Shown piece by piece: positions 423 through 40,769 of a DNA stretch of 64,000 nt; position 1 is the first letter of the stretch; every line of letters starts with the position of its first letter. The translations under genes were made by a program, and so were the position numbers. The notes under the pieces were generated by a model. The model saw only the letters and a program-made list of their open reading frames with translations. It did no database searches and was not told the DNA's origin. This DNA comes from an uncultured Bacteroides sp. (lineage in GTDB: Bacteria > Bacteroidota > Bacteroidia > Bacteroidales > Bacteroidaceae). Location of the stretch: NCBI GenBank assembly GCA_902388495.1, contig CABMPP010000011.1:39694-103693 (forward strand), given 5' to 3'.

Positions 423-2747
423 ATGATAAAGAAAATCGTCAAAATCCTTTGGATTTTCATTGCACTGATTGCATTGGTGTGTGTCTTTATATTCTTCTCT
501 ATTGCTAAAGGCTGGATAGGCTATATGCCCCCGGTAGAAGACCTGGAAAACCCGAATTACAAGTTTGCCACAGAAGTGCTTTCCGATGACGGGAAGGTAC
601 TCGGTACGTATTCTTATAGTAAAGAGAACCGTGTTTTTGTAGGCTATAATGATTTGTCGCCCCACATCATCAATGCTTTGATTGCTACGGAAGACGTGCG
701 CTTTGCCGAACATTCGGGCATTGACGCCATAGCATTGTTTCGTGCGCTGGTGAAGCGTGGTGTCCTGATGCAGAAGAATGCCGGTGGTGGTAGTACCATC
801 ACCCAGCAGCTTTCCAAACAGCTCTATTCGCCCAGTGCCGACAATATAATGGAACGTCTTTTTCAGAAACCCATCGAATGGGTGATTGCCGTGAAGCTGG
901 AACGCTACTATACCAAAGAGGAAATCCTCACGATGTATCTCAATAAGTTCGACTTCCTGAACAATGCGGTAGGTGTAAAAACAGCCGCTTTCACCTATTT
1001 CGGTTGCGAACCGAAGGATTTGAAGATAGAAGAAGCCGCTACGCTGGTAGGCATGTGCAAGAATCCGTCGCTCTATAATCCGGTTCGCTACAATGAGCGT
1101 TCACGCGGACGCCGCAACGTTGTGCTCGATCAGATGCGCAAAGCCGGTTATATCACGGAAGCAGAACGCGACTCTCTGCAGGCGCTGCCCCTGAAACTGA
1201 AATACAACCGTGTAGACCATAAAGAGGGATTGGCAACTTATTTCCGCGAATACCTGCGCGGTGTGCTCACTGCCAAGAAACCCGACAAAGCCGATTATCG
1301 CGGTTGGCAAATGCAGAAATTCTACGAAGATTCGCTCGACTGGGAGAACAATCCGCTGTTTGGCTGGTGCGAAAAGAACACCAAGAAAGACGGTACCAAA
1401 TACAATCTTTATACCGACGGATTGAAAATTTATACAACCCTCGACTCGCGTATGCAGAAGTATGCCGAAGATGCCGTGACCGAACATCTGAAAGAACTTC
1501 AAGGCTACTTCTTCAAAGAGAAAAAAGGCGCCAAGAAGGCTCCATACACATTCAGACTGACCCAGGAGCAAGTAGATGAGATTTTAGGACGTGCCATGAG
1601 GCTGTCCGACCGTTACCGCATCATGAAGAAAAACGGTGCATCCGAGGCGGAGATAAAGAAGGCTTTCGATACGCCGGAAGAAATGTCCGTGTTCAGCTGG
1701 GAGGGAGAGAAAGATACCATCATGACCCCGATGGACTCCATACGTTACTACAAATTCTTCCTTCGTGCCGGCTTCATGTCCATGGATCCGCGCAGCGGTT
1801 ATGTGAAGGCTTATGTAGGTGGACCTAATTATCACTATTTCCAATACGACATGGCAATGGTAGGTCGTCGCCAGGTAGGTTCTACCATCAAGCCATTCCT
1901 ATATACGCTGGCTATGGAGAACGGCTTCTCGCCCTGCGACGAAGTGCGCCATGTGGAATATACGTTGATTGACGAAAACGGAAAACCGTGGACTCCGCGT
2001 AATGCCAATAAGAAACGCTATGGTGAAATGCTGACCGTGAAGTGGGGATTGGCAAACTCGGATAACTGGATAACCGCTTATCTGATGAGTAAACTGAACC
2101 CATATAACCTCAAGCGCCTGATACATACTTTCGGCGTGCGCAATCGTGAAATTGTTCCTTCCGTTTCGCTCTGTCTGGGACCGTGCGAAATTTCCGTCGG
2201 CGAGATGGTGAGTGCTTATACGGCATTCCCTAACAAGGGGATCCGGGTTGCTCCTCTGTTCGTGACGCGTATAGAAGATAACAGTGGCAATATACTGGCA
2301 ACCTTCTCACCGGAAATGCAGGAAGTTATCAGCGTGTCCAGTGCCTATAAAATGCTGGTTATGCTGCGTGCCGTTGTCAACGAAGGTACCGGAGGGCGTG
2401 TACGCCGTCTGGGTGTAAAGGCCGATATGGGTGGCAAGACGGGAACAACGAACTATAATGCCGATGGCTGGTTTATGGGCTTCACTCCGTCGCTTGTATC
2501 CGGTTGCTGGGTGGGCGGCGAAGACCGTGACATCCATTTCGATACGATGTTGCATGGGCAGGGTGCTTCTATGGCATTGCCCATTTGGACTAAATATATG
2601 GTAAAAGTGCTTGGTGACAAGTCTTTGGGATATGATGAGAATGAGACATTCCAGTTGCCCGAAGGTTATGACCCCTGCAAGGATACTGTAGAAGGAGAGC
2701 CACGCACCGAAGAACCGATAGGGGGATTGGATGAATTGTTTAACTAA
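423..2747 (+). CDS. mrcA: class A penicillin-binding protein 1A (glycosyltransferase/transpeptidase)
   Basis: This is a bifunctional peptidoglycan synthase of 774 residues, acting at the outer face of the inner membrane. One N-terminal membrane helix (about residues 4-28) anchors it. The GT51 glycosyltransferase domain shows the EDVRFAEHSGID motif (catalytic Glu near residue 90) and GGSTITQQ. The transpeptidase domain shows the SxxK motif GSTIK (Ser near 487), an SDN motif and a KTGTT motif. Length is normal for PBP1A. The gene begins a rightward run that continues with folK-like and kdsB. The start is the first ATG in a strong coding frame. Confidence 0.93.
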   Translation: MIKKIVKILWIFIALIALVCVFIFFSIAKGWIGYMPPVEDLENPNYKFATEVLSDDGKVLGTYSYSKENRVFVGYNDLSPHIINALIATEDVRFAEHSGIDAIALFRALVKRGVLMQKNAGGGSTITQQLSKQLYSPSADNIMERLFQKPIEWVIAVKLERYYTKEEILTMYLNKFDFLNNAVGVKTAAFTYFGCEPKDLKIEEAATLVGMCKNPSLYNPVRYNERSRGRRNVVLDQMRKAGYITEAERDSLQALPLKLKYNRVDHKEGLATYFREYLRGVLTAKKPDKADYRGWQMQKFYEDSLDWENNPLFGWCEKNTKKDGTKYNLYTDGLKIYTTLDSRMQKYAEDAVTEHLKELQGYFFKEKKGAKKAPYTFRLTQEQVDEILGRAMRLSDRYRIMKKNGASEAEIKKAFDTPEEMSVFSWEGEKDTIMTPMDSIRYYKFFLRAGFMSMDPRSGYVKAYVGGPNYHYFQYDMAMVGRRQVGSTIKPFLYTLAMENGFSPCDEVRHVEYTLIDENGKPWTPRNANKKRYGEMLTVKWGLANSDNWITAYLMSKLNPYNLKRLIHTFGVRNREIVPSVSLCLGPCEISVGEMVSAYTAFPNKGIRVAPLFVTRIEDNSGNILATFSPEMQEVISVSSAYKMLVMLRAVVNEGTGGRVRRLGVKADMGGKTGTTNYNADGWFMGFTPSLVSGCWVGGEDRDIHFDTMLHGQGASMALPIWTKYMVKVLGDKSLGYDENETFQLPEGYDPCKDTVEGEPRTEEPIGGLDELFN

Positions 2748-2769
2748 TGGAGAATGGTTCATTAAAGGA

Positions 2770-3147
2770 ATGATTTATACAATCAGCATTGGCAGTAACG
2801 AGCACCAGAAAGATAATCTGGCACTGGCACGCAAGCGCTTGGCCGAACTTTTCCCGGGAATCCGTTTTTCGAAGGAAGAGGAGACGAAACCTTTGTTCTT
2901 TCGCCGCCCGAATCTGTTTTCCAATCAAGTGGCACGCTTTGCTTCCAACTGTCCGACGGGAGAAGTCACTTCCCGGCTGAAAGCTATTGAGCAGGAAGCA
3001 GGAAGGATGCCCGAAGAGAAAATGCAGGAGATTGTCCGGCTGGATATTGATCTATTGTCCTGCGATGCGGTGGTTTACAAACCGGAGGATTTGAAAAGAG
3101 ACTATATTCTTCGCGGTTTGGAGGAACTGGAATCGAAGCAATCTTAA
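2770..3147 (+). CDS. folK: HPPK-like 2-amino-4-hydroxy-6-hydroxymethyldihydropteridine pyrophosphokinase
   Basis: This 125-residue protein begins MIYTISIGSN, like the IxLGSN opening of HPPK, and has the family signature IVRLDIDLLSCD near the C-terminus. HPPK transfers pyrophosphate from ATP to hydroxymethyl-dihydropterin in folate synthesis. An upstream in-frame ATG at 2731 overlaps the end of mrcA. I prefer 2770 because family similarity starts there. It is shorter than typical HPPK (about 160 residues), so activity is likely but not certain. Confidence 0.7.
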   Translation: MIYTISIGSNEHQKDNLALARKRLAELFPGIRFSKEEETKPLFFRRPNLFSNQVARFASNCPTGEVTSRLKAIEQEAGRMPEEKMQEIVRLDIDLLSCDAVVYKPEDLKRDYILRGLEELESKQS

Positions 3148-3173
3148 TTTGTAATCAGTAATTTGTAACTATA

Positions 3174-3929
3174 ATGAAGTTTTTAGGAATTATTCCTGCC
3201 CGTTACGCATCTACGCGTTTCCCTGCCAAACCCTTGGCTATGCTGGGCGGAAAGACAGTGATACAGCGGGTATACGAACAAGTGGCAGGCGTCTTGGATG
3301 ATGCCTATGTAGCCACTGACGACGAACGTATTGAAGCTGCAGTGAAAGCCTTCGGAGGAAAAGTGGTGATGACCTCCGTAGATCATAAAAGCGGCACCGA
3401 CCGGTGCTATGAGGCATGCACTAAGATTGGCGGACAGTTTGACGTCGTTGTGAATATCCAGGGAGACGAACCTTTTATCCAACCTTCACAGTTGCAAACC
3501 GTCAAGACTTGTTTTGATGACCCCACTACTCAAATAGCGACTTTGGTAAAGCCTTTCACTGCCGATAATGGTTTTGAAGCATTAGAAAATGTGAATTCTC
3601 CCAAAGTGGTATTGAACAAGAATATGAATGCACTTTATTTCAGCCGTTCCATTATTCCTTACCAACGCAATGCGGAGAAAGCGGAGTGGCTGAAGAATCA
3701 TACCTATTACAAGCACATCGGCCTGTATGCCTATCGGGTAGAGGTACTGAAAGAGATAACGTCTCTTTCCCAATCTTCTTTGGAGCTGGCCGAGTCGTTG
3801 GAACAGTTGCGGTGGCTGGAAAATGGATATACAATAAAGGCCGGCATTACCGAAGTGGAAACCATCGGCATCGATACGCCGCAGGATTTGGAACGGGCAG
3901 AAGAGTTTTTAAAGAGAAACCAATGTTAG
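3174..3929 (+). CDS. kdsB: 3-deoxy-manno-octulosonate cytidylyltransferase (CMP-Kdo synthetase)
   Basis: This 251-residue protein has the KdsB signature IPARYASTRFPAKPL at the N-terminus, a TDD motif near residue 49 and QGDEPF near residue 100. It activates Kdo as CMP-Kdo for the lipopolysaccharide inner core and is cytoplasmic. Length matches the family. Its stop codon overlaps the start of the next gene, suggesting translational coupling. Confidence 0.95.
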   Translation: MKFLGIIPARYASTRFPAKPLAMLGGKTVIQRVYEQVAGVLDDAYVATDDERIEAAVKAFGGKVVMTSVDHKSGTDRCYEACTKIGGQFDVVVNIQGDEPFIQPSQLQTVKTCFDDPTTQIATLVKPFTADNGFEALENVNSPKVVLNKNMNALYFSRSIIPYQRNAEKAEWLKNHTYYKHIGLYAYRVEVLKEITSLSQSSLELAESLEQLRWLENGYTIKAGITEVETIGIDTPQDLERAEEFLKRNQC

Positions 3930-5212
3930 ACCGAAGTAATCAACCCCAAATCCTGGAGCCGGAGCATCTGGCCATACAAAAGCCCGAACGGATGGTACTG
4001 CCTAACGGCGTCCCTCTGAATGTGCTTAATGCCGGTGAAAGTGAAGTAGTCCGCGTGGACCTTTTGATGGAAGGCGGACGCTGGCATCAGACACAGGTCT
4101 TGCAGGCATTGTTTACAAACCGGATGCTGCGCGAGGGAACCCGGCGCTATACGGCTGCCGAGATAGCAGAGAAACTGGATTATTACGGAGCCTGGCTGGA
4201 ACTGTCCAGTGCGTCGGAGTATGCTTACGTCACGCTGTATTCCTTGAATAAATATCTACCCGAAACATTGGATGTGCTGGAATCCATTATTAAGGAACCG
4301 GTATTTCCGGAGAAAGAACTGGGCGTGATTGTCGAAAATAATATCCAGCAATTCCAGGTCAATTCCTCCAAAGTCGATTTCCTGGCACATCGCGGACTGG
4401 TAAAGTCCTTGTATGGCGAGCAGCATCCTTGCGGCCGGTTGGTGCAGGAAGAAGATTATTATCGTGTCAATCCTGCTGTGCTGAGTGAGTTTTATACCCG
4501 TTACTATCATTCCAAAAATTGCAGCATTTATCTTTCGGGCAAAGTCAATGATGACTGCCTGCGCCGGATAGAAAGGCTCTTTGGGAACGAACCTTTCGGT
4601 ACAGACTTCCGTAAGCCGGAGAAGATAGAATATACACCTGTTTCTTCCTCTGAAAAACGCATATTCATAGAGCGTCCGGATGCGTTGCAAAGTGCGGTGC
4701 GCATGGGGATGCTTTCTTTAGACCGCAATCATCCCGATTATTTGAAGATGCGTGTGTTGGTGACTTTGTTCGGCGGGTATTTCGGCAGTCGCCTGATGTC
4801 CAATATCCGCGAAGAAAAGGGATATACTTATGGCATCTCGGCAGGTATCATGCCCTATCCGGGAAAGGGAGTGCTGGTTATCAGTGCCGAAACTGCCAAT
4901 GAATTTGTGGAGCCTTTAATTGCCGAGGTCTACCATGAAATAGACCGCCTGCAAAATGACCTGGTTTCCGACGAGGAACTTTATATGGTAAAGAATTATA
5001 TGCTGGGCGATATGTGCCGTAGTTACGAATCCGCCTTCTCATCGGCCGATGCATGGATTTTCGTGCAGACTTCCGACTTGCAGGACACGCATTTTGCAGA
5101 AGCTATGGAGGCTGTGAAGACCGTTACTCCGCAGGAGATCCGTGAACTTGCGGAACGTCATTTTTGCAAAGAGACATTAAAAGAAGTCGTGTCCGGCAAA
5201 AAAATGTCATAA
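3923..5212 (+). CDS. M16 (insulinase-like) peptidase family protein, probably catalytically inactive
   Basis: This 429-residue protein has the M16 fold: an N-terminal half with MLREGTRRYTAAEIAEKLDYYGA and a C-terminal half with GSRLMSNIREEKGYTYGI, the typical C-domain motif. The zinc-binding HxxEH expected near residue 50 is absent; the equivalent stretch reads LFTNRML. It is therefore probably a non-catalytic M16 subunit or an inactive homologue. The ATG at 3923 overlaps the kdsB stop by 7 bp. An earlier ATG at 3686 lies inside kdsB and is rejected. Confidence 0.8.
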   Translation: MLDRSNQPQILEPEHLAIQKPERMVLPNGVPLNVLNAGESEVVRVDLLMEGGRWHQTQVLQALFTNRMLREGTRRYTAAEIAEKLDYYGAWLELSSASEYAYVTLYSLNKYLPETLDVLESIIKEPVFPEKELGVIVENNIQQFQVNSSKVDFLAHRGLVKSLYGEQHPCGRLVQEEDYYRVNPAVLSEFYTRYYHSKNCSIYLSGKVNDDCLRRIERLFGNEPFGTDFRKPEKIEYTPVSSSEKRIFIERPDALQSAVRMGMLSLDRNHPDYLKMRVLVTLFGGYFGSRLMSNIREEKGYTYGISAGIMPYPGKGVLVISAETANEFVEPLIAEVYHEIDRLQNDLVSDEELYMVKNYMLGDMCRSYESAFSSADAWIFVQTSDLQDTHFAEAMEAVKTVTPQEIRELAERHFCKETLKEVVSGKKMS

Positions 5213-25536: not shown

Positions 25537-25667
25537 GGGAGCGTAGCTCAGTGGATAGAGCGCCGTGTGTGGTGGAAGGTTGGGAGTTCGAGTCTCTCAA
25601 GTAGATTCTTAGCTTAACGGGAGAGCACCACAAGCGGAGGTCGGTGGTTCGAATCCACCCGTTTCCA
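25537..25667 (+). tRNA. composite tRNA-like element (fused or interrupted tRNA)
   Basis: The 5' acceptor GGGAGCG pairs with the distant 3' CGTTTCC, and the outer ends have a D-arm (GCTC/GAGC) and a T-arm (GGTGG-TTCGAAT-CCACC). Between them lie a second T-arm-like hairpin (GGGAG-TTCGAGT-CTCTC) and a second D-arm-like hairpin (GCTT...GAGC). The would-be anticodon arms (CCG..TGTGG / CCACA..CGG) pair across the insert. It may be two tandem tRNAs fused by deletion or one interrupted tRNA. No reliable anticodon can be given. Confidence 0.5.
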
Positions 25668-29289: not shown

Positions 29290-29332
29290 CCCTTTAAAAT
29301 GAAATACCAAAACATTCCAAGTATCTACCCCG

Positions 29333-30307
29333 GTCCAGCCCCGCCAGGCGAGGAAGGACTACATTAACCACTTCCGCCAGGAGAAGCCTTTAGAAGGTAT
29401 ATACTTCACTGGCTTCATTCGGGAAGTTTTGGAAAAACGATCTCGACGCAAGTCAAAGGACTATGCTGCCGTCTACGATGCTATTATCAAGCATATTGAT
29501 AACTTCTCTGAAGAGTTTGATTGCGACATATTCACGAACTCTATTACTGCGGAGTTCTTGGATGATTTCATCATCTACCTGGAAGACCAGGGACTAAGGC
29601 ATAACACAATTGTTGGGTATATCCAAAAGATTCAATCACTTGTTCGACGGGCCAGCCAGTATAACTATGCAGTAGATACGACCTACGATGAGATTGATTT
29701 ACGGGAGGAGCCGACAAATGCGGTGTTTCTTTCGATGAATGAGATTACGCGTATCTACTATTACAAGTTTTTGAAGCAGGATAAGCGGAAAGCTAAGGAA
29801 CGCATCCGGGACTTATTTGTTATCGGTTGCCTTACCGCCTTACGCTATTCTGATTATTCTACCCTTACAGCAGATAACTTACAGCAAGGCTATATTGTGA
29901 AGCGGACAAAGAAGACTAACGTTGATGTCAAGGTGCCGGCCCATGACTACGTATTGGAGATATTCGAGAAATATCATGGACTGATTCCAAGTGGCTTGTG
30001 CATTCAGTACTTCAACAAGTACCTGAAGGTAATAATGCGCGAAATCGGTCTGACGGATAAGATCACCTATTCATATACCCAGGGTGGGAAGCTAATCACT
30101 GTCACTCGTGAGAAGTGGGAATTAATTAGTAGTCATACAGCGAGAAGAAGCGCTGCAACCAATATGTATCTGACCGGTCGCATGAAGACCTTTGAGATTA
30201 TGAAACTCACCGGGCACCGGTCCGAACAGAATTTCTTCCGCTACATACGTTTGACATCGGAAGATACGGCACGTGCCATATCTGGTGATAGTTTTTGGAG
30301 GAAATAA
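29333..30307 (+). CDS. int: tyrosine recombinase (integrase), start unresolved
   Basis: This protein (324 residues from 29333) has an SAM-like core-binding domain (about 30-115) and the catalytic domain with Arg in TALRYSDYSTL, HTARRS, TGHRSEQ and the Tyr in FFRYIRLT. Phage integrases of this type recombine attP with a tRNA-linked attB. The coding pattern extends upstream of the first usual start (TTG at 29429) through QARKDYINHFRQEK, with no ATG or GTG. The frame opens after a stop at 29300. I place the start at GTC 29333; a 1-bp shift from ATG 29299 is the alternative. Confidence 0.85.
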   Translation, partial: VQPRQARKDYINHFRQEKPLEGIYFTGFIREVLEKRSRRKSKDYAAVYDAIIKHIDNFSEEFDCDIFTNSITAEFLDDFIIYLEDQGLRHNTIVGYIQKIQSLVRRASQYNYAVDTTYDEIDLREEPTNAVFLSMNEITRIYYYKFLKQDKRKAKERIRDLFVIGCLTALRYSDYSTLTADNLQQGYIVKRTKKTNVDVKVPAHDYVLEIFEKYHGLIPSGLCIQYFNKYLKVIMREIGLTDKITYSYTQGGKLITVTREKWELISSHTARRSAATNMYLTGRMKTFEIMKLTGHRSEQNFFRYIRLTSEDTARAISGDSFWRK

Positions 30308-35227: not shown

Positions 35228-35257
35228 TTGCGGTAGTACCTTTGGGGTACTATCGCG
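35228..35257 (+). other. hairpin directly 5' of the initiator-like tRNA
   Basis: GCGGTAGTACC and GGTACTATCGC form an 11-bp stem (one wobble) around a 5-nt loop and end at the first bases of the tRNA. The stem could affect tRNA processing. Confidence 0.55.
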
Positions 35258-35326
35258 GGTTAGAGCAGTGGTCAGCTCGTCACTTTGACTTGGTGAAGGT
35301 CAGCGGTTCGAATCCGTTACCCGCAA
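35254..35326 (+). tRNA. initiator-type tRNA with GAC anticodon
   Basis: The cloverleaf is complete. Acceptor CGCGGGT/ACCCGCA leaves C1 opposite A72, the hallmark of bacterial initiator tRNA, with A73. The D-stem GAGC/GCTC gives A11:U24, also initiator-like. The T-arm is AGCGG/CCGTT. The anticodon arm is TCACT-TTGACTT-GGTGA, anticodon GAC (codons GUC/GUU), without the three G:C pairs normally seen in tRNA-fMet and with an unusual U37. An automatic tool would probably call it tRNA-Val. See findings. Confidence 0.75.
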
Positions 35327-35359
35327 CAATGATTATTAACTTTTAAAATACACACGATT

Positions 35360-35719
35360 ATGGAAATTTTGACGCTTATCATTAAGCAAAAATTCTTTGA
35401 TGAGATTATCAAAGGCACGAAAAAACAAGAGTTCAGAGAGATACGTCCGAATAGTCAAGCAAAATATTGCGAACTGGATAATGAAGGATTTTGCAAAGAA
35501 GTTGACGGTGTATTGCAGCCTCGCAAGTATGATGCAATTCGTTTCTTTGTTGGTTATAACAAAGACCGTGCTTCGGCTTTGGTTAAGGTTGAAGGTGCGA
35601 AGATTGAACTCTTTGAGGACGAAGATGGTAATCTCATTGAATATAAAGATAAAGGTGAAAGTTATTTAGCTGCACAGGTCGTTTATGACCTTGGTGAAAT
35701 AATAGAGAAGAATGTTTAA
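35360..35719 (+). CDS. ASCH/PUA-like domain protein
   Basis: This 119-residue protein begins MEILTLIIKQKFFDEIIKGTKKQEFREI, an ASCH-like pattern (KxxfdxIlxGtKkiEfR), and contains YDAIRFFVGYNKDRASALV. ASCH proteins bind RNA or nucleosides. It lies 33 bp after the unusual tRNA and could act on RNA; this is inference. The start follows CACACGATTATG. Confidence 0.75.
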   Translation: MEILTLIIKQKFFDEIIKGTKKQEFREIRPNSQAKYCELDNEGFCKEVDGVLQPRKYDAIRFFVGYNKDRASALVKVEGAKIELFEDEDGNLIEYKDKGESYLAAQVVYDLGEIIEKNV

Positions 35720-35739
35720 CTATTAATTAAAAAAGCTGA

Positions 35740-35898
35740 GTCAGACAAAGAACAGGTTTTGCAACCTCTAACTACAGAGGTGGTCGTAGAGGGCTAACGG
35801 TGCCCGGTACAGGTAGAACGTCAAACGGTGGTCGATTTATCACCCGTAGACAGCAGTATGGTAATATCCGCAGAGGATTAGGCATGAGTGGGGGATGA
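35740..35898 (+). CDS. small Arg/Gly-rich basic protein, apparent GTC start
   Basis: The frame RQRTGFATSNYRGGRRGLTV to GNIRRGLGMSGG (52 residues if GTC is read as Met) opens with GTC at 35740, directly after an in-frame TGA. No ATG precedes the conserved-looking part; the first normal start would be a GTG near 35800. The stop overlaps the next ATG (ATGA), as in other coupled genes here, which supports translation. Basic composition suggests nucleic-acid binding. Confidence 0.55.
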   Translation, partial: VRQRTGFATSNYRGGRRGLTVPGTGRTSNGGRFITRRQQYGNIRRGLGMSGG

Positions 35899-37485: not shown

Positions 37486-38001
37486 ATGAGTAATAGTGAA
37501 TCTCAAAATACAAAAGGTAAAGGAGGAAGAAAGCCTAAGTTTGATTACACAAGCGAGGACTTTCTTTCTCTCGTAGAGTCGTATGCCAAAAAGGGATTCA
37601 CGGACAAGGAAATTGCTCATGCTATTGGACTGTGTCCTCAAACATTCTGTGAGAAGAAGAACGAATACCCCGAATTTAGCGAAGTACTATCACGCGCGCG
37701 TTGTGCAATTAACTCACTGGTGCGTGCCAAGTTCCTTGCTATGGCTTTGGGTGGTGTCAAGACAAAAAGCACCACTATCCGGAAAATCAAGGATAAGGAA
37801 GGAAACCTAACGGGTGAGGAAGAAGTTCAAACCGTAGAAGGTGAACTGGCTCCCAGCTTGCAAGCACAGTCTGTTTGGCTTTACCATTACGATGAAGAAT
37901 GGAGGAAGATAGAGCGTAAGCAGGATGAAGATGCCGACATTCCCACAGACATAAACCACGGTATCAGTATTGATTCATGGATTAAAGATAAGCTGAAATG
38001 A
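37486..38001 (+). CDS. terS: terminase small subunit
   Basis: This 171-residue protein has an N-terminal HTH (KKGFTDKEIAHAIGLCPQTFCE) and a C-terminal part ending GISIDSWIKDKLK, typical of small terminases that recognise the packaging site. It overlaps terL by 4 bp. Confidence 0.85.
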   Translation: MSNSESQNTKGKGGRKPKFDYTSEDFLSLVESYAKKGFTDKEIAHAIGLCPQTFCEKKNEYPEFSEVLSRARCAINSLVRAKFLAMALGGVKTKSTTIRKIKDKEGNLTGEEEVQTVEGELAPSLQAQSVWLYHYDEEWRKIERKQDEDADIPTDINHGISIDSWIKDKLK

Positions 38002-39266
38002 TAGTACCCCAAGAAATTTACCATCCATTATACGAAGATAAGGAGAAATTTATTATCCTTGTCACCGGAGGAAGAGGTAGCGGAAAAAGTTTCAATGCTT
38101 CCACCTTCATCGAACGTCTTACCTTTGAAATGACGGAAGCCGAGAAGATAGTCCACCAGATTCTCTATACCCGTTATACGATGGTTTCCGCAGGTATGTC
38201 TATCATTCCGGAAATGATGGAAAAGATAGAACTGGACGGAACAGAGAAGTATTTCCGAACCACCAAGACGGATATAGTCAATAAAATGACGAAAAGCCGT
38301 ATCATGTTCCGGGGTATCAAAACTTCATCAGGTAATCAGACGGCAAAGCTGAAATCAATTCAGGGTATTACTACTTTCGTCTGCGATGAAGCGGAAGAGT
38401 GGACGAATGAAGAAGAGTTCGACAAGATAATGCTCTCTATCCGTAAGAAAGGGATTCAGAACCGGATTATCATCATAATGAACCCTTGCGACTCCAATCA
38501 CTTCATTTACAAGAAATACATCGAGAATACTCATAAGCTTGTAGAGATTGACGGAGTACAGGTACAGATTTCCACTCATCCGAACGTGCTCCACATTCAT
38601 ACTACCTATTTCGACAACTTGGAGAACCTTTCTCCTGAGTTCCTGAAAGAGGTAGAGGATATGAAGTTGAATAGCCCCGAAAAGTACGCCCATGTGGTTA
38701 TCGGGCGTTGGGCTGATGTTGCGGAAGGTGCGGTGTTCAAGAAGTGGGGTATCGTGAAAGAGTTTCCTTCTTATGCAAAGAAAGTGGCTCTTGCATCTGA
38801 CTGGGGTTATACTAATGACCCATCAACCGGTATTCGTTGCGGTATTGTAGATAATCGGTTGTATGTAGATGAGCTATTCTATGAAACTGGAATGCTAACC
38901 AATGCCATTGCCGAGAAACTAAAGCCGTGGGGACTAAAAGTATATGGAGATAGTGCCGATCCCCGTTTGATACAAGAAATTAAGAATCGAGGTGTGAACA
39001 TCTACCCGGTAGATAAGTTCCCCGGATCGATTAAAGCAGGTATAGATAAAATCCATGAAATGGAGTTGTATGTTACAGAACGTTCGTACCATATTATAGA
39101 GGAACTTCGGAAATATGTTTGGGATAAAGACAAAGACGGGCATTACATCAATGAACCGGTAGACGCTTGGAATCATTGTATCGATCCCATTAGGTACTAT
39201 ATTTTGGGACATATTCTCGGACGTATTTTGAAGCCGAAAGATTTAACTGGAATATTCACACATTAA
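37998..39266 (+). CDS. terL: terminase large subunit
   Basis: This 422-residue protein has the Walker A TGGRGSGKSF, Walker B TFVCDEAEEW, and nuclease acidic positions in ASDWGYTNDPST, GDSADPR and VDAWNHCIDPIRY (PBSX-type). It is the packaging motor and headful or cos nuclease of a tailed phage. Complete length. Confidence 0.95.
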   Translation: MIVPQEIYHPLYEDKEKFIILVTGGRGSGKSFNASTFIERLTFEMTEAEKIVHQILYTRYTMVSAGMSIIPEMMEKIELDGTEKYFRTTKTDIVNKMTKSRIMFRGIKTSSGNQTAKLKSIQGITTFVCDEAEEWTNEEEFDKIMLSIRKKGIQNRIIIIMNPCDSNHFIYKKYIENTHKLVEIDGVQVQISTHPNVLHIHTTYFDNLENLSPEFLKEVEDMKLNSPEKYAHVVIGRWADVAEGAVFKKWGIVKEFPSYAKKVALASDWGYTNDPSTGIRCGIVDNRLYVDELFYETGMLTNAIAEKLKPWGLKVYGDSADPRLIQEIKNRGVNIYPVDKFPGSIKAGIDKIHEMELYVTERSYHIIEELRKYVWDKDKDGHYINEPVDAWNHCIDPIRYYILGHILGRILKPKDLTGIFTH

Positions 39267-39278
39267 AAATATAGCAGA

Positions 39279-40769
39279 GTCAAAAGTTTAGAAGAAATAT
39301 TAGCATTACCCGACATCGGGCAGAAGATAAGCTACCTAAAGAAAGGAAGAAAGACCGAACTTCCTGACCGTTGCAAACTTTGGGACGATTGGAATCCTGA
39401 ACGCCATGAAATCATGGTAGACAAAGAGAAGTACCCGGACAGAAAGGTGCTTGAAAAGGATGCGGAAAAAGTTTTCGATGAGAAGACTGGTAAGACTTGC
39501 GAGGTTGAAGCACAGTACAAAACTGAGCCGGTAAACCGTATCTCCATTCCATTGGAACAGGATATTGTTAACATTCAAACAGCTTTCACAGTAGGCACTG
39601 AGCCTTCAATAGACTGCACTCCAACGGATGATGATGAAAAGAAACTTCTGGATGCCGTTAAAGCCGTATTCAAGTCTAACAAAATCAAGTACCAAAACAA
39701 GAAGATAGTCCGTTCCTGGCTCTCCGAGCAAGAGGTTGCCGAATATTGGTATGTTGCCGATGATGATTCGTTCTGGAATAAGTTTTGGAAGAAAGTAAAG
39801 ACTACCTTCGGAGGCAAGGTAAAACCTGCCAAGAAGTTGAAAAGCGTGTTATGGTCTCCATTCAGAGGCGATACACTCTACCCGTTCTTCAATGATGAAG
39901 GTGATATGATTGCTTTCTCCCGCGAGTATAAGAAGAAGCTCATGGATGATTCGGAAATTACCTGCTTTATGACTATTACCGATAAGATGGTCTACCAATG
40001 GGATTTGTCTAAGGGGTATGAGGAAAGATCTTCATTCGCTCATGGATTCCCTAAACTGCCGGTTATCTATGCTTACCGTCGCGAAACATTCTGTAAGAAG
40101 ATTAAGACCTTCCGCGTGCGGTTGGAGAAACTTCTTTCAAACTATGCCGATTGTATCGACTATCATTTCTTCCCGATACTCCAACTTATTGGTGATGTGG
40201 AAGGCTTTATGGGAAAGGTTAAAGATAGGATGGTTAAACTTACAGGGCAGGGAGCAGGTGCTTCATATCTAACTTGGAACCAAGTGCCGGATACAATCAA
40301 ATTTGAAGCTGAAACGCTTACCAACATGGCTTATGATATGTCAAATACTCCGCGCATCTCCTTTGAGACATTGAAAGGTGTGGGAAAAGCGTCCGGTACA
40401 GCTTTTCGTTTTATGTTCATGGGTGCCCACATGGCTGTCGAAAACCACGGTGAGGTTATCGGAGAGTTCTTGCAACGTAGGGTTAATTTCATTGTTTCCG
40501 CTTTAGGCTCAATCAATCCTTCTGAGTTCAACAAAGTTTCACAGACGATTGATATAGAAACCGATCTTGTTCCATATATGATTGATGATTTGGATGATAA
40601 GGTTTCTACGGCTGTCTCCGCAGTGGGTGGTGGCATTTGGTCAACACGTGAAGGTATCATGTTCGCGGGGAATGCTGATAGGGTAGAAGAAGAACTTGCT
40701 GAAATCAAGGAAGAGCAAGCTGCAAAGAATACTCAAACCAGAAATAAAGAACAGAAAATAGCTTCGTAG
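39279..40769 (+). CDS. portal protein, apparent GTC start
   Basis: This is a SPP1-like portal (496 residues from 39279), the ring through which DNA enters the head. The first ATG is at 39414, but coding sequence clearly extends upstream: KSLEEILALPDIGQK and LPDRCKLWDDWNPERHEIM read on in frame to a stop at 39264. GTC at 39279 sits exactly where Met is expected (x-KSLEEIL). No ATG, GTG or TTG precedes this in frame. The C-terminal half has the usual portal features (TPRISFETLKGVGKASG). Confidence 0.85.
   Translation, partial: VKSLEEILALPDIGQKISYLKKGRKTELPDRCKLWDDWNPERHEIMVDKEKYPDRKVLEKDAEKVFDEKTGKTCEVEAQYKTEPVNRISIPLEQDIVNIQTAFTVGTEPSIDCTPTDDDEKKLLDAVKAVFKSNKIKYQNKKIVRSWLSEQEVAEYWYVADDDSFWNKFWKKVKTTFGGKVKPAKKLKSVLWSPFRGDTLYPFFNDEGDMIAFSREYKKKLMDDSEITCFMTITDKMVYQWDLSKGYEERSSFAHGFPKLPVIYAYRRETFCKKIKTFRVRLEKLLSNYADCIDYHFFPILQLIGDVEGFMGKVKDRMVKLTGQGAGASYLTWNQVPDTIKFEAETLTNMAYDMSNTPRISFETLKGVGKASGTAFRFMFMGAHMAVENHGEVIGEFLQRRVNFIVSALGSINPSEFNKVSQTIDIETDLVPYMIDDLDDKVSTAVSAVGGGIWSTREGIMFAGNADRVEEELAEIKEEQAAKNTQTRNKEQKIAS

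Follow-up and report, generated by a model that had tools for sequence, protein, structure and literature searches.

Initiator-type tRNAs with altered anticodons are predicted to pair privately with matching start codons in phages of the Bacteroidales

The analysis presented here suggests that a prophage of an uncultured Bacteroides sp. and many of its relatives very probably possess natural private pairs of initiator tRNA and start codon, a function predicted from sequence. The window, that is, the whole stretch of 64,000 nucleotides analyzed, encodes an initiator-type tRNA with the anticodon GAC, and the original prediction that this tRNA serves a private GUC start is supported because anticodon and start codon covary across related phages, both in a small gene that usually accompanies the tRNA and in the major capsid protein (MCP) gene. 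The start is considered private because the host initiator tRNA (CAU) should read GUC, GUU, GUA and ACC poorly. In the usual view, translation starts with a single initiator tRNA at a small set of AUG-like codons; pairs of the present kind have been engineered before, and those predicted here are natural.

The window holds a prophage, and the portal protein of this prophage shares 91% identity with its counterpart in Bacteroides phage BS-TP2 across 93% of the length. Its tRNA (Table 1) was called as tRNA-Val(gac) by ARAGORN (35254-35327) and scored 53.7 bits against the Rfam tRNA model (35254-35326). Inspection of the sequence identified A73, A11:U24 and C1 opposite A72; the anticodon loop is TTGACTT (UUGACUU in the RNA), giving U37 and U38, and the anticodon stem, UCACU/GGUGA, is devoid of a run of three G:C pairs. 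The initiator-type body, the GAC anticodon and the missing three G:C pairs that had been claimed for this gene are therefore borne out by the sequence, ARAGORN and Rfam. An unannotated stretch of BS-TP2 is 81% identical to the window tRNA, and a search of plasmid sequences with this tRNA yielded no match. Elsewhere in the window (25537-25667, forward strand) lies a 131-nt tRNA-like element (46.9 bits, Rfam tRNA model) that looks like two fused tRNAs, with the 5' acceptor strand coming from the first and the 3' strand from the second; none of the loci compared contained a close copy of its full length.

Table 1. Features of the predicted private-start systems. Coordinates refer to the window unless a contig handle is given.
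Feature	Location	Strand	Basis or remark
Initiator-like tRNA, anticodon GAC at 35287-35289	35254..35326	+	ARAGORN, Rfam, family alignment
ASCH-domain-like gene, 119 aa, ATG start	35360..35719	+	Between tRNA and its target gene
GCTGA context ahead of small-gene GTC	35735..35739	+	A(-1) can pair with U37; G(-2) can pair with U38
Small basic RG-rich gene, 52 aa, GTC start	35740..35898	+	Usual partner of the tRNA
Terminase large subunit (named via BS-TP2 homology)	37998..39266	+	Ends 12 nt ahead of portal GTC
GCAGA context ahead of portal GTC	39274..39278	+	Sequence
Portal protein gene, GTC start, 496 aa	39279..40769	+	ORF, homologue alignment
GUU/C37 tRNA and AAC gene	L188, 2882-2958 and 3001
GUU/C37 tRNA and AAC gene	L192, 2885-2960 and 2998

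Downstream of the tRNA, the window contains an ASCH-like gene (so named from the annotation of its BS-TP2 homologue; PHROG 625, function unknown), the small basic gene, a PAPS-reductase-like gene, a ParB-like gene, the terminase genes and the portal gene, in this order. As had been proposed, the small gene and the portal gene open with GTC, and neither has a canonical in-frame start upstream. The small gene reads TGA/GTC AGA CAA... over 52 codons (slashes between codons mark predicted starts), with an in-frame TGA immediately upstream and the next canonical start 20 codons inside. PHROGs and Pfam gave no name for the small GTN proteins tested, and the single-sequence fold prediction for the window protein was weak (mean pLDDT 65, pTM 0.32); a database ortholog has Met exactly where the window has its Val start. 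The terminase stop TAA (39264-39266) is followed by AAA TAT AGC AGA/GTC AAA AGT..., which constitutes the portal opening, and the next canonical start in the portal frame is the ATG at 39414, 45 codons in. Homologous portals have the N-terminal stretch in common, and in most of them an ATG start lies no more than a few codons from the position of this GTC. Both GTC genes of the window end at normal stops, and the anticodon of the tRNA corresponds to GUC and GUU, and to no stop codon.

The designation of the portal as a target holds for the window, whereas across the family it is the small basic gene that most often accompanies the tRNA: among the 79 loci compared plus the window, a GTC-start portal was found only in the window and in L012. 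The latter carries the tRNA, so no GTC portal without a tRNA was encountered. The suggestion that the integrase might also start at GTC was not sustained, since the GTC near 29335 is preceded by CG, not GA, and the ATG at 29301 lies in another frame. The integrase-like frame itself (29301-30307, forward strand) opens without ATG, which might reflect a frameshift or a start that has decayed.

In order to compare related loci, portal homology was used to gather 79 viral loci and 30 loci in bacterial genomes. A covariance model identified such tRNAs in 47 of the 79 viral loci (two of them of a type with an 8-nt loop), in a further locus (L080) and in the window, with scores of at least 61 bits versus at most 24 bits for other tRNAs in the same loci. 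Versions with a valine anticodon were present in 13 of the 30 bacterial-genome loci, which derive from Bacteroides, Paraprevotella, Hallella, Hoylesella, uncultured Bacteroidales and two MAGs labelled Lachnospira/Lachnospiraceae. In the hosts of related prophages, the best-scoring tRNA under the family model, the phage copy aside, reached 71-73 bits, and the four such matches inspected (G001, G003, G004, G005) are initiator-type tRNA-Met(CAU). An exact pattern of the tRNA body had no match in viral_contigs, and looser patterns were used instead; with the anticodon free and U37U38G39 fixed, these returned 64 stretches (GAC 42, AAC 17, UAC 5). CAC was not among the 64; it would read GUG, which is already a usual start codon.

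Features of the family were counted on 59 chosen loci, amounting to 53 distinct tRNA sequences, of which 48 have a valine anticodon, the set having been selected on NAC; many sequences are close kin, and the counts include them. Among readable valine-anticodon versions, the 1:72 pair is mismatched in 46 of 47, the remaining one being U1:A72, and A11:U24 is present in 48/48, so that the elongator-type combination of paired 1:72 with Y11:R24 was not found. The determinants recognized by formyltransferase are the pairs G2:C71, C3:G70 and G4:C69, and these occur in 47/47, 47/47 and 46/47 versions, respectively. A73 is found in 47 of 48, U37U38 is invariant (48/48), none of the 48 has a run of three G:C pairs in its anticodon stem, and the 31:39 pair is U.G in 47/48. 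The family thus departs from the initiator class in its anticodon (GAC, AAC, UAC or GGU instead of CAU) and in the three G:C pairs. In five tRNAs (L016, 1583; L042, 1546; L044, 2167; L047, 1602; L151, 5590), the D-loop GG and the T-loop TTC are both lost, and the elbow contacts seem to have gone together. In L025, L027, L148 and L163, an ordinary tRNA-Asn(GTT) lies 4 nt after the private tRNA, which in these loci has A:A at 1:72 and a degenerate D-arm. On the portal tree, the labelled rows require at least seven anticodon changes. AAC and UAC both occur at two separate positions, but one of these positions is that of L084, a non-homologous row on a misplaced long branch; the starred branches force one origin of AAC only.

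The covariation between anticodon and start codon was assessed on the small basic gene, which usually lies about 0.5 kb downstream of the tRNA. An HMM of the small protein retrieved 128 ORFs in the loci compared, and distinct contexts were counted in loci with a tRNA. Beside GAC tRNAs the small gene opens with GTC in 41 distinct contexts, GTT in one and ATG in one; beside AAC tRNAs with GTT in seven and ATG in two; and beside UAC tRNAs with GTA in two. It opens with ATG in the two distinct contexts with a CAU tRNA (L164/L166, and L165, in which the tRNA is about 7 kb from the small gene, so that the pairing is not one of adjacent genes) and in the two with an 8-nt-loop tRNA. All 51 distinct GTN starts of the small gene are readable by the tRNA of their own locus, through Watson-Crick pairing or G34 with U, and none of 200,000 trials in which labels were shuffled reached 51/51 (P<=5e-6, kinship ignored). 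Some phages with the tRNA have an ATG small gene (the L033 group, GAC; the L038 group and L152, AAC), and these contain other GTC or GTT genes.

Co-occurrence was tallied in 101 loci for which 5.5 kb or more of sequence upstream of the portal was available: tRNA and small gene are both present in 77 and both absent from 18, four have the small gene only and two the tRNA only, and the whole records of nine of the loci with neither (19.6-59.9 kb) contain no such tRNA. Three of the four small-gene-only loci (L060, L171, L172) have an ATG small gene, and the fourth (L078) has a GTC one; when the full record of L078 was examined as a test, once the hypothesis had been framed, a GAC tRNA was found about 0.5 kb upstream of its small gene. 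In L066, another GTC case, the small gene lies about 0.5 kb from the contig start, where the tRNA would sit.

The MCP gene provides a second, unrelated gene for this comparison. In the UAC phage L084/L201, the ORF opening GCTGA/GTA encodes the MCP (PHROG 29, E 6e-31; Pfam PF03864). The gene was found in 80 loci of 188 relatives, and its start was placed by alignment alone, which resulted in 61 ATG, 14 GTT, two GTA and one TTG starts, one start misplaced by two codons (L245) and one partial gene. All six GTN starts in records with a known tRNA match its anticodon (five GTT with AAC, one GTA with UAC). ATG starts of the MCP gene also occur alongside tRNAs with GAC (L228, L239, L241, L257), AAC plus CAU (L224), GGU (L218) and CAU (L245), and L239, L241 and L224 carry further genes with GTC or GTT starts in the neighbourhood of the tRNA; the presence of the tRNA therefore does not force the MCP gene to use a private start. 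Four fragments of 12.7-19 kb with a GTT-start MCP (L206, L210, L212, L261) have no tRNA in their records. Among the 120 listed homologues of the GTA-start MCP, 85 have Met exactly at the GTA residue and 35 are shorter and open internally, including P0003, which is 99% identical to the GTA-start protein. The BS-TP2 MCP was also considered, and is too distant from the GTA-start MCP for a comparison of N-termini.

The sequence preceding the start is likewise distinctive. At GTN starts of both gene families, A(-1) faces U37 and G(-2) faces U38, L069 having been left out of this count because a chance upstream GTC had been picked there. Where the small gene starts with ATG, these two positions read tt, ct, aa or tc. 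The rule used for the small gene required GA before a non-ATG start, and no family member lost its start thereby; the unbiased test of this context is consequently the capsid set, in which GA precedes 8/8 distinct GTN starts versus 0/47 distinct ATG starts (Fisher 8e-10, kinship ignored). A scan blind to the anticodon gave a concordant picture. Among the codons opening start-less ORFs after GC[TA]GA on the tRNA strand, GTC ranks top in GAC loci (39 distinct, versus 12 for the next codon), GTT in AAC loci (7) and GTA in UAC loci (4). GTC is absent from the 12 commonest openers listed for the opposite strand of GAC loci, and GTC, GTT and GTA are all absent from the top lists for the antisense strand and for CAU loci. 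The control without tRNA contained five GTN openers (GTC in L078 and L032, GTT in two, GTA in one), of which L078 does carry a tRNA in its full record and the L032 gene lies at a contig end. A looser scan for [TA]GA ahead of GTN also returned background clusters (e.g. CL2, CL3, CL6, CL7, CL9) and was set aside, so that the evidence rests on family-anchored starts and the GC[TA]GA scan.

Under a strict rule, a GTN gene matching the anticodon was identified in 107 of the 109 tRNA loci that extend 2.5 kb or more on the 3' side, some of which were fetched twice from one contig. Of the two exceptions, L134 contains a GTC gene preceded by GCCGA, whereas in L006 the tRNA is present and no partner gene was seen. 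Recurrent GTC and GTT genes encode short basic proteins (VRKKTYSQL, VRRRQRSY, VRRKSLND and others) and often begin 7-8 nt after AGGAGG; a ParB-like gene is GTT-started in the L038 group and a PAPS-reductase-like gene is GTC-started in L033. The AGGAGG motif lies 7-8 nt upstream of many private-start genes (L002, 2996; L016, 3977; L077, 2966; L295, 2306; and others), although ribosomes of Bacteroidia are reported not to use Shine-Dalgarno (SD) sequences (PMC9976891). In the 50 of 57.6 kb of BS-TP2 that were scanned, there is one such gene; its annotation begins at an internal ATG, 33 nt beyond the private start, and the tRNA is unannotated. A search of about 5.8 billion predicted proteins, which requires shared 5-residue words and similar length, returned a single homologue of the window small protein outside the window. 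Both this scarcity and the shortened MCP homologues are consistent with private starts causing such phage genes to be miscalled.

Anticodons beyond valine extend the correspondence. In a second test made once the hypothesis had been framed, the record of L218, a contig picked for its related capsid gene, proved to contain an initiator-like tRNA with anticodon GGU and U37. Its small gene opens GCTGA/ACC (TRRRTTFSTSGYRGGRQ...) and is 59-61% identical to GTC-start orthologs, and a second gene opens GCTGA/ACT after AGGAGG. In L295, a related contig with a GGU-type tRNA, ACC or ACT opens six genes with a closely similar context, and one of these (TRRKTREQIYAQAERLS...) is 79% identical to a protein that is GTC-started in GAC phages; the two GGU contigs are close kin. 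The tRNA and the openers of L295 lie at 728 and 1215-4170 (reverse-strand coordinates), L288 has two ACC/ACT genes, and several of these genes follow AGGAGG. The pairing of ACC with GGU implies that the correspondence of start and anticodon is not confined to valine codons and that conservation does not concern the amino acid; a first residue that may be either Val or Thr suggests that what is kept is privacy.

A scan for U37 with a base other than A at position 35 returned five stretches (GGU two, CCU two, UUU one). The CCU initiator-like tRNAs with U37 are in L291 and L293. In L293, a gene for a head-closure protein (2044-2397, reverse strand; PHROG 25, E 2e-20) has a possible opening GGCAGA/AGG after AAGGAGG, which makes AGG as a private start a lead based on one case. 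The UUU tRNA (L294) has no recognized partner. When positions 37-39 were left free and base 34 was required not to be C, 44 stretches were obtained. The known family accounts for 38 of these, and the remaining six comprise three with GUU and C37, two with UAU and one with GAC and G37. About 40 nt after a GUU tRNA (Table 1), a gene opens ...CCG/AAC with an SD-like AAGGAG, and a second version of the tRNA, likewise with GUU and C37, is followed by ...CCG/AAC GAT TTT GGA. Relatives with no tRNA in the 3 kb upstream have ATG in the same place (L196, ATG GAT TTT GGC) or 2-3 codons earlier (L191). At the AAC starts G(-1) pairs with C37, as A(-1) does with U37 in the main family, and PHROGs gave no name for the protein. 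Judging from these few sequences, the GUU tRNA and its AAC starts look like a second, separate private start codon. Initiator-like UAU tRNAs with the loop CTTATAA (L183, 3772-3845, reverse strand; L185, 2341-2415, forward strand) could read AUA as a start. For the GAC tRNA with G37 (L184, 838-912, reverse strand), no C/GTC partner was found on the tRNA strand of two stretches. Finally, three initiator-like tRNAs in the same place as the private tRNA (L168, 5755-5831; L075, 1-74; L072, 1-70) have an enlarged 8-nt loop holding GTGGCTTT; no convincing GCC partner was found for them, and the adjoining small gene opens with ATG.

According to the mechanism proposed here, the anticodon of a phage initiator tRNA was altered from CAU, to GAC in the window and to AAC, UAC or GGU in related phages, and a selected set of phage genes exchanged AUG for the codon matching the tRNA. 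The tRNA would be charged by the synthetase of its anticodon, presumably ValRS in the window (A35, C36, A73), formylated by methionyl-tRNA formyltransferase, as the mismatched 1:72 and the pairs G2:C71, C3:G70 and G4:C69 suggest, and delivered to the P site by IF2. There it may read four bases, A(-1) G U C with U37 C36 A35 G34, and this reading may replace the missing three G:C pairs. Charging with valine and formylation are inferred from an engineered E. coli initiator, G34C36 (GAC), which is reported to be charged with valine, to be formylated and to start at GUC (PMC2268962). In the same report, E. coli mutants in the three G:C pairs are described as much less active, so that the phage tRNA must compensate, and pairing between U37 and A(-1) is proposed to do so. 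The purpose is the least certain part of this reading: the small basic proteins, the portal in the window, and the ParB-like protein and MCP elsewhere would depend on the phage tRNA and not on the host initiator, which might serve timing, or continued synthesis when host initiation is blocked.

Other explanations account for part of these observations. If the tRNA were an initiator charged with methionine, proteins with GUC starts would begin with fMet, and its body is near that of the host fMet tRNA (the family model gives 71-73 bits for the four host CAU copies inspected). Recognition by MetRS, however, relies on the CAU anticodon, and the valine versions have A35 and C36, with A73 in 47/48. 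ValRS, moreover, is reported to charge the engineered GAC initiator (PMC2268962), and charging with methionine appears quite improbable. Still less probable is a role of the tRNA as a decoy or an unusual elongator, with host fMet tRNA starting the GTN genes at a low level. The host initiator can start weakly at near-cognate codons, which speaks for such a scheme, and phage tRNAs with altered anticodon loops have been reported as nuclease escapees (PMC10264068). Against it, the start tracks the anticodon in two unrelated genes, no GTN small-gene start lies beside a valine tRNA unable to read it (51/51), the GGU phage changes two of three bases (ACC for GTC), and the 1:72 mismatch and A11:U24 disfavor an elongator. 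Access to the GTN frames by frameshift or readthrough from the upstream gene, without initiation, is suggested by the TGA that often stands immediately before GTN; yet the base ahead of GA varies (TGA, AGA, CGA), as does the distance to the preceding in-frame stop. Orthologs, moreover, carry their ATG at precisely the residue in question, and AGGAGG stands at a regular spacing before several of the starts, all of which makes this the least credible of the alternatives.

A further possibility concerns purpose and is compatible with private initiation: the system may bypass an attack on initiator tRNA, such as that of VapC-type toxins, a rebuilt anticodon arm allowing private-start proteins to be made when host or phage shuts AUG initiation. 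The anticodon arm is much changed relative to host fMet tRNA (U31.G39 in 47/48, U37U38, no three G:C pairs), the capsid protein is private-started in several phages, and VapC-LT2 is reported to target tRNA-fMet, which phages generally avoid carrying according to the same source (PMC10264068). On the other hand, most phage genes, including the portal in most relatives, still start with ATG, so that a full block of AUG would still stop the phage. Bypass is accordingly a tentative suggestion that we consider rather unlikely.

Private initiation by a phage tRNA, the reading favored here, resembles several known systems without coinciding with any of them. With bacterial and phage tRNA-fMet(CAU), such as the tRNA-Met of Erwinia and Vibrio phages, the family shares the C1:A72-type mismatch, A11:U24 and the acceptor stem, and it differs from them in that they have the CAU anticodon, the three G:C pairs and an AUG start. 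In phage stop-codon recoding, a suppressor tRNA reads a stop codon during elongation; in both cases the code is altered through joint changes in a tRNA and in genes of the phage, whereas with private starts a sense codon gains the meaning of a start, and does so in chosen genes only. The engineered E. coli initiator (PMC2268962) has the same combination of initiator body, GAC anticodon and GUC start; it is man-made from the E. coli initiator, whereas the phage tRNA is natural, has lost the three G:C pairs, has U37, and comes with co-evolved genes and several codons. The mark of an engineered-type orthogonal pair, target starts that match the anticodon and are not usual start codons, was found in the small gene, the MCP gene and the ACC/GGU case. 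Nuclease-evading phage tRNAs (PMC10264068) are also phage-borne with an altered anticodon arm; no link to start codons is seen in that report, the main text of which does not contain the term 'start codon'. No natural non-CAU initiator tRNA with matching starts was found in the literature searched, most subscription papers lying outside the scope of the search.

If the prediction is correct, a dedicated tRNA reassigns the meaning of start codons gene by gene in nature, with anticodon and start codon co-evolving. Such pairs would offer ready-made parts for orthogonal initiation, and a test of what an initiator requires, namely whether it can do without the three G:C pairs when residue 37 is paired to position -1. 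More broadly, we think it likely, with less assurance than for the pairs themselves, that orthogonal initiation has evolved repeatedly in phages, as a four-base code using valine and threonine codons (perhaps also AGG) in phages of the Bacteroidales and, separately, AAC elsewhere, and that it places virion proteins such as the MCP beyond host control of initiation or nucleases directed at initiator tRNA, with the codon hopping and privacy being kept.
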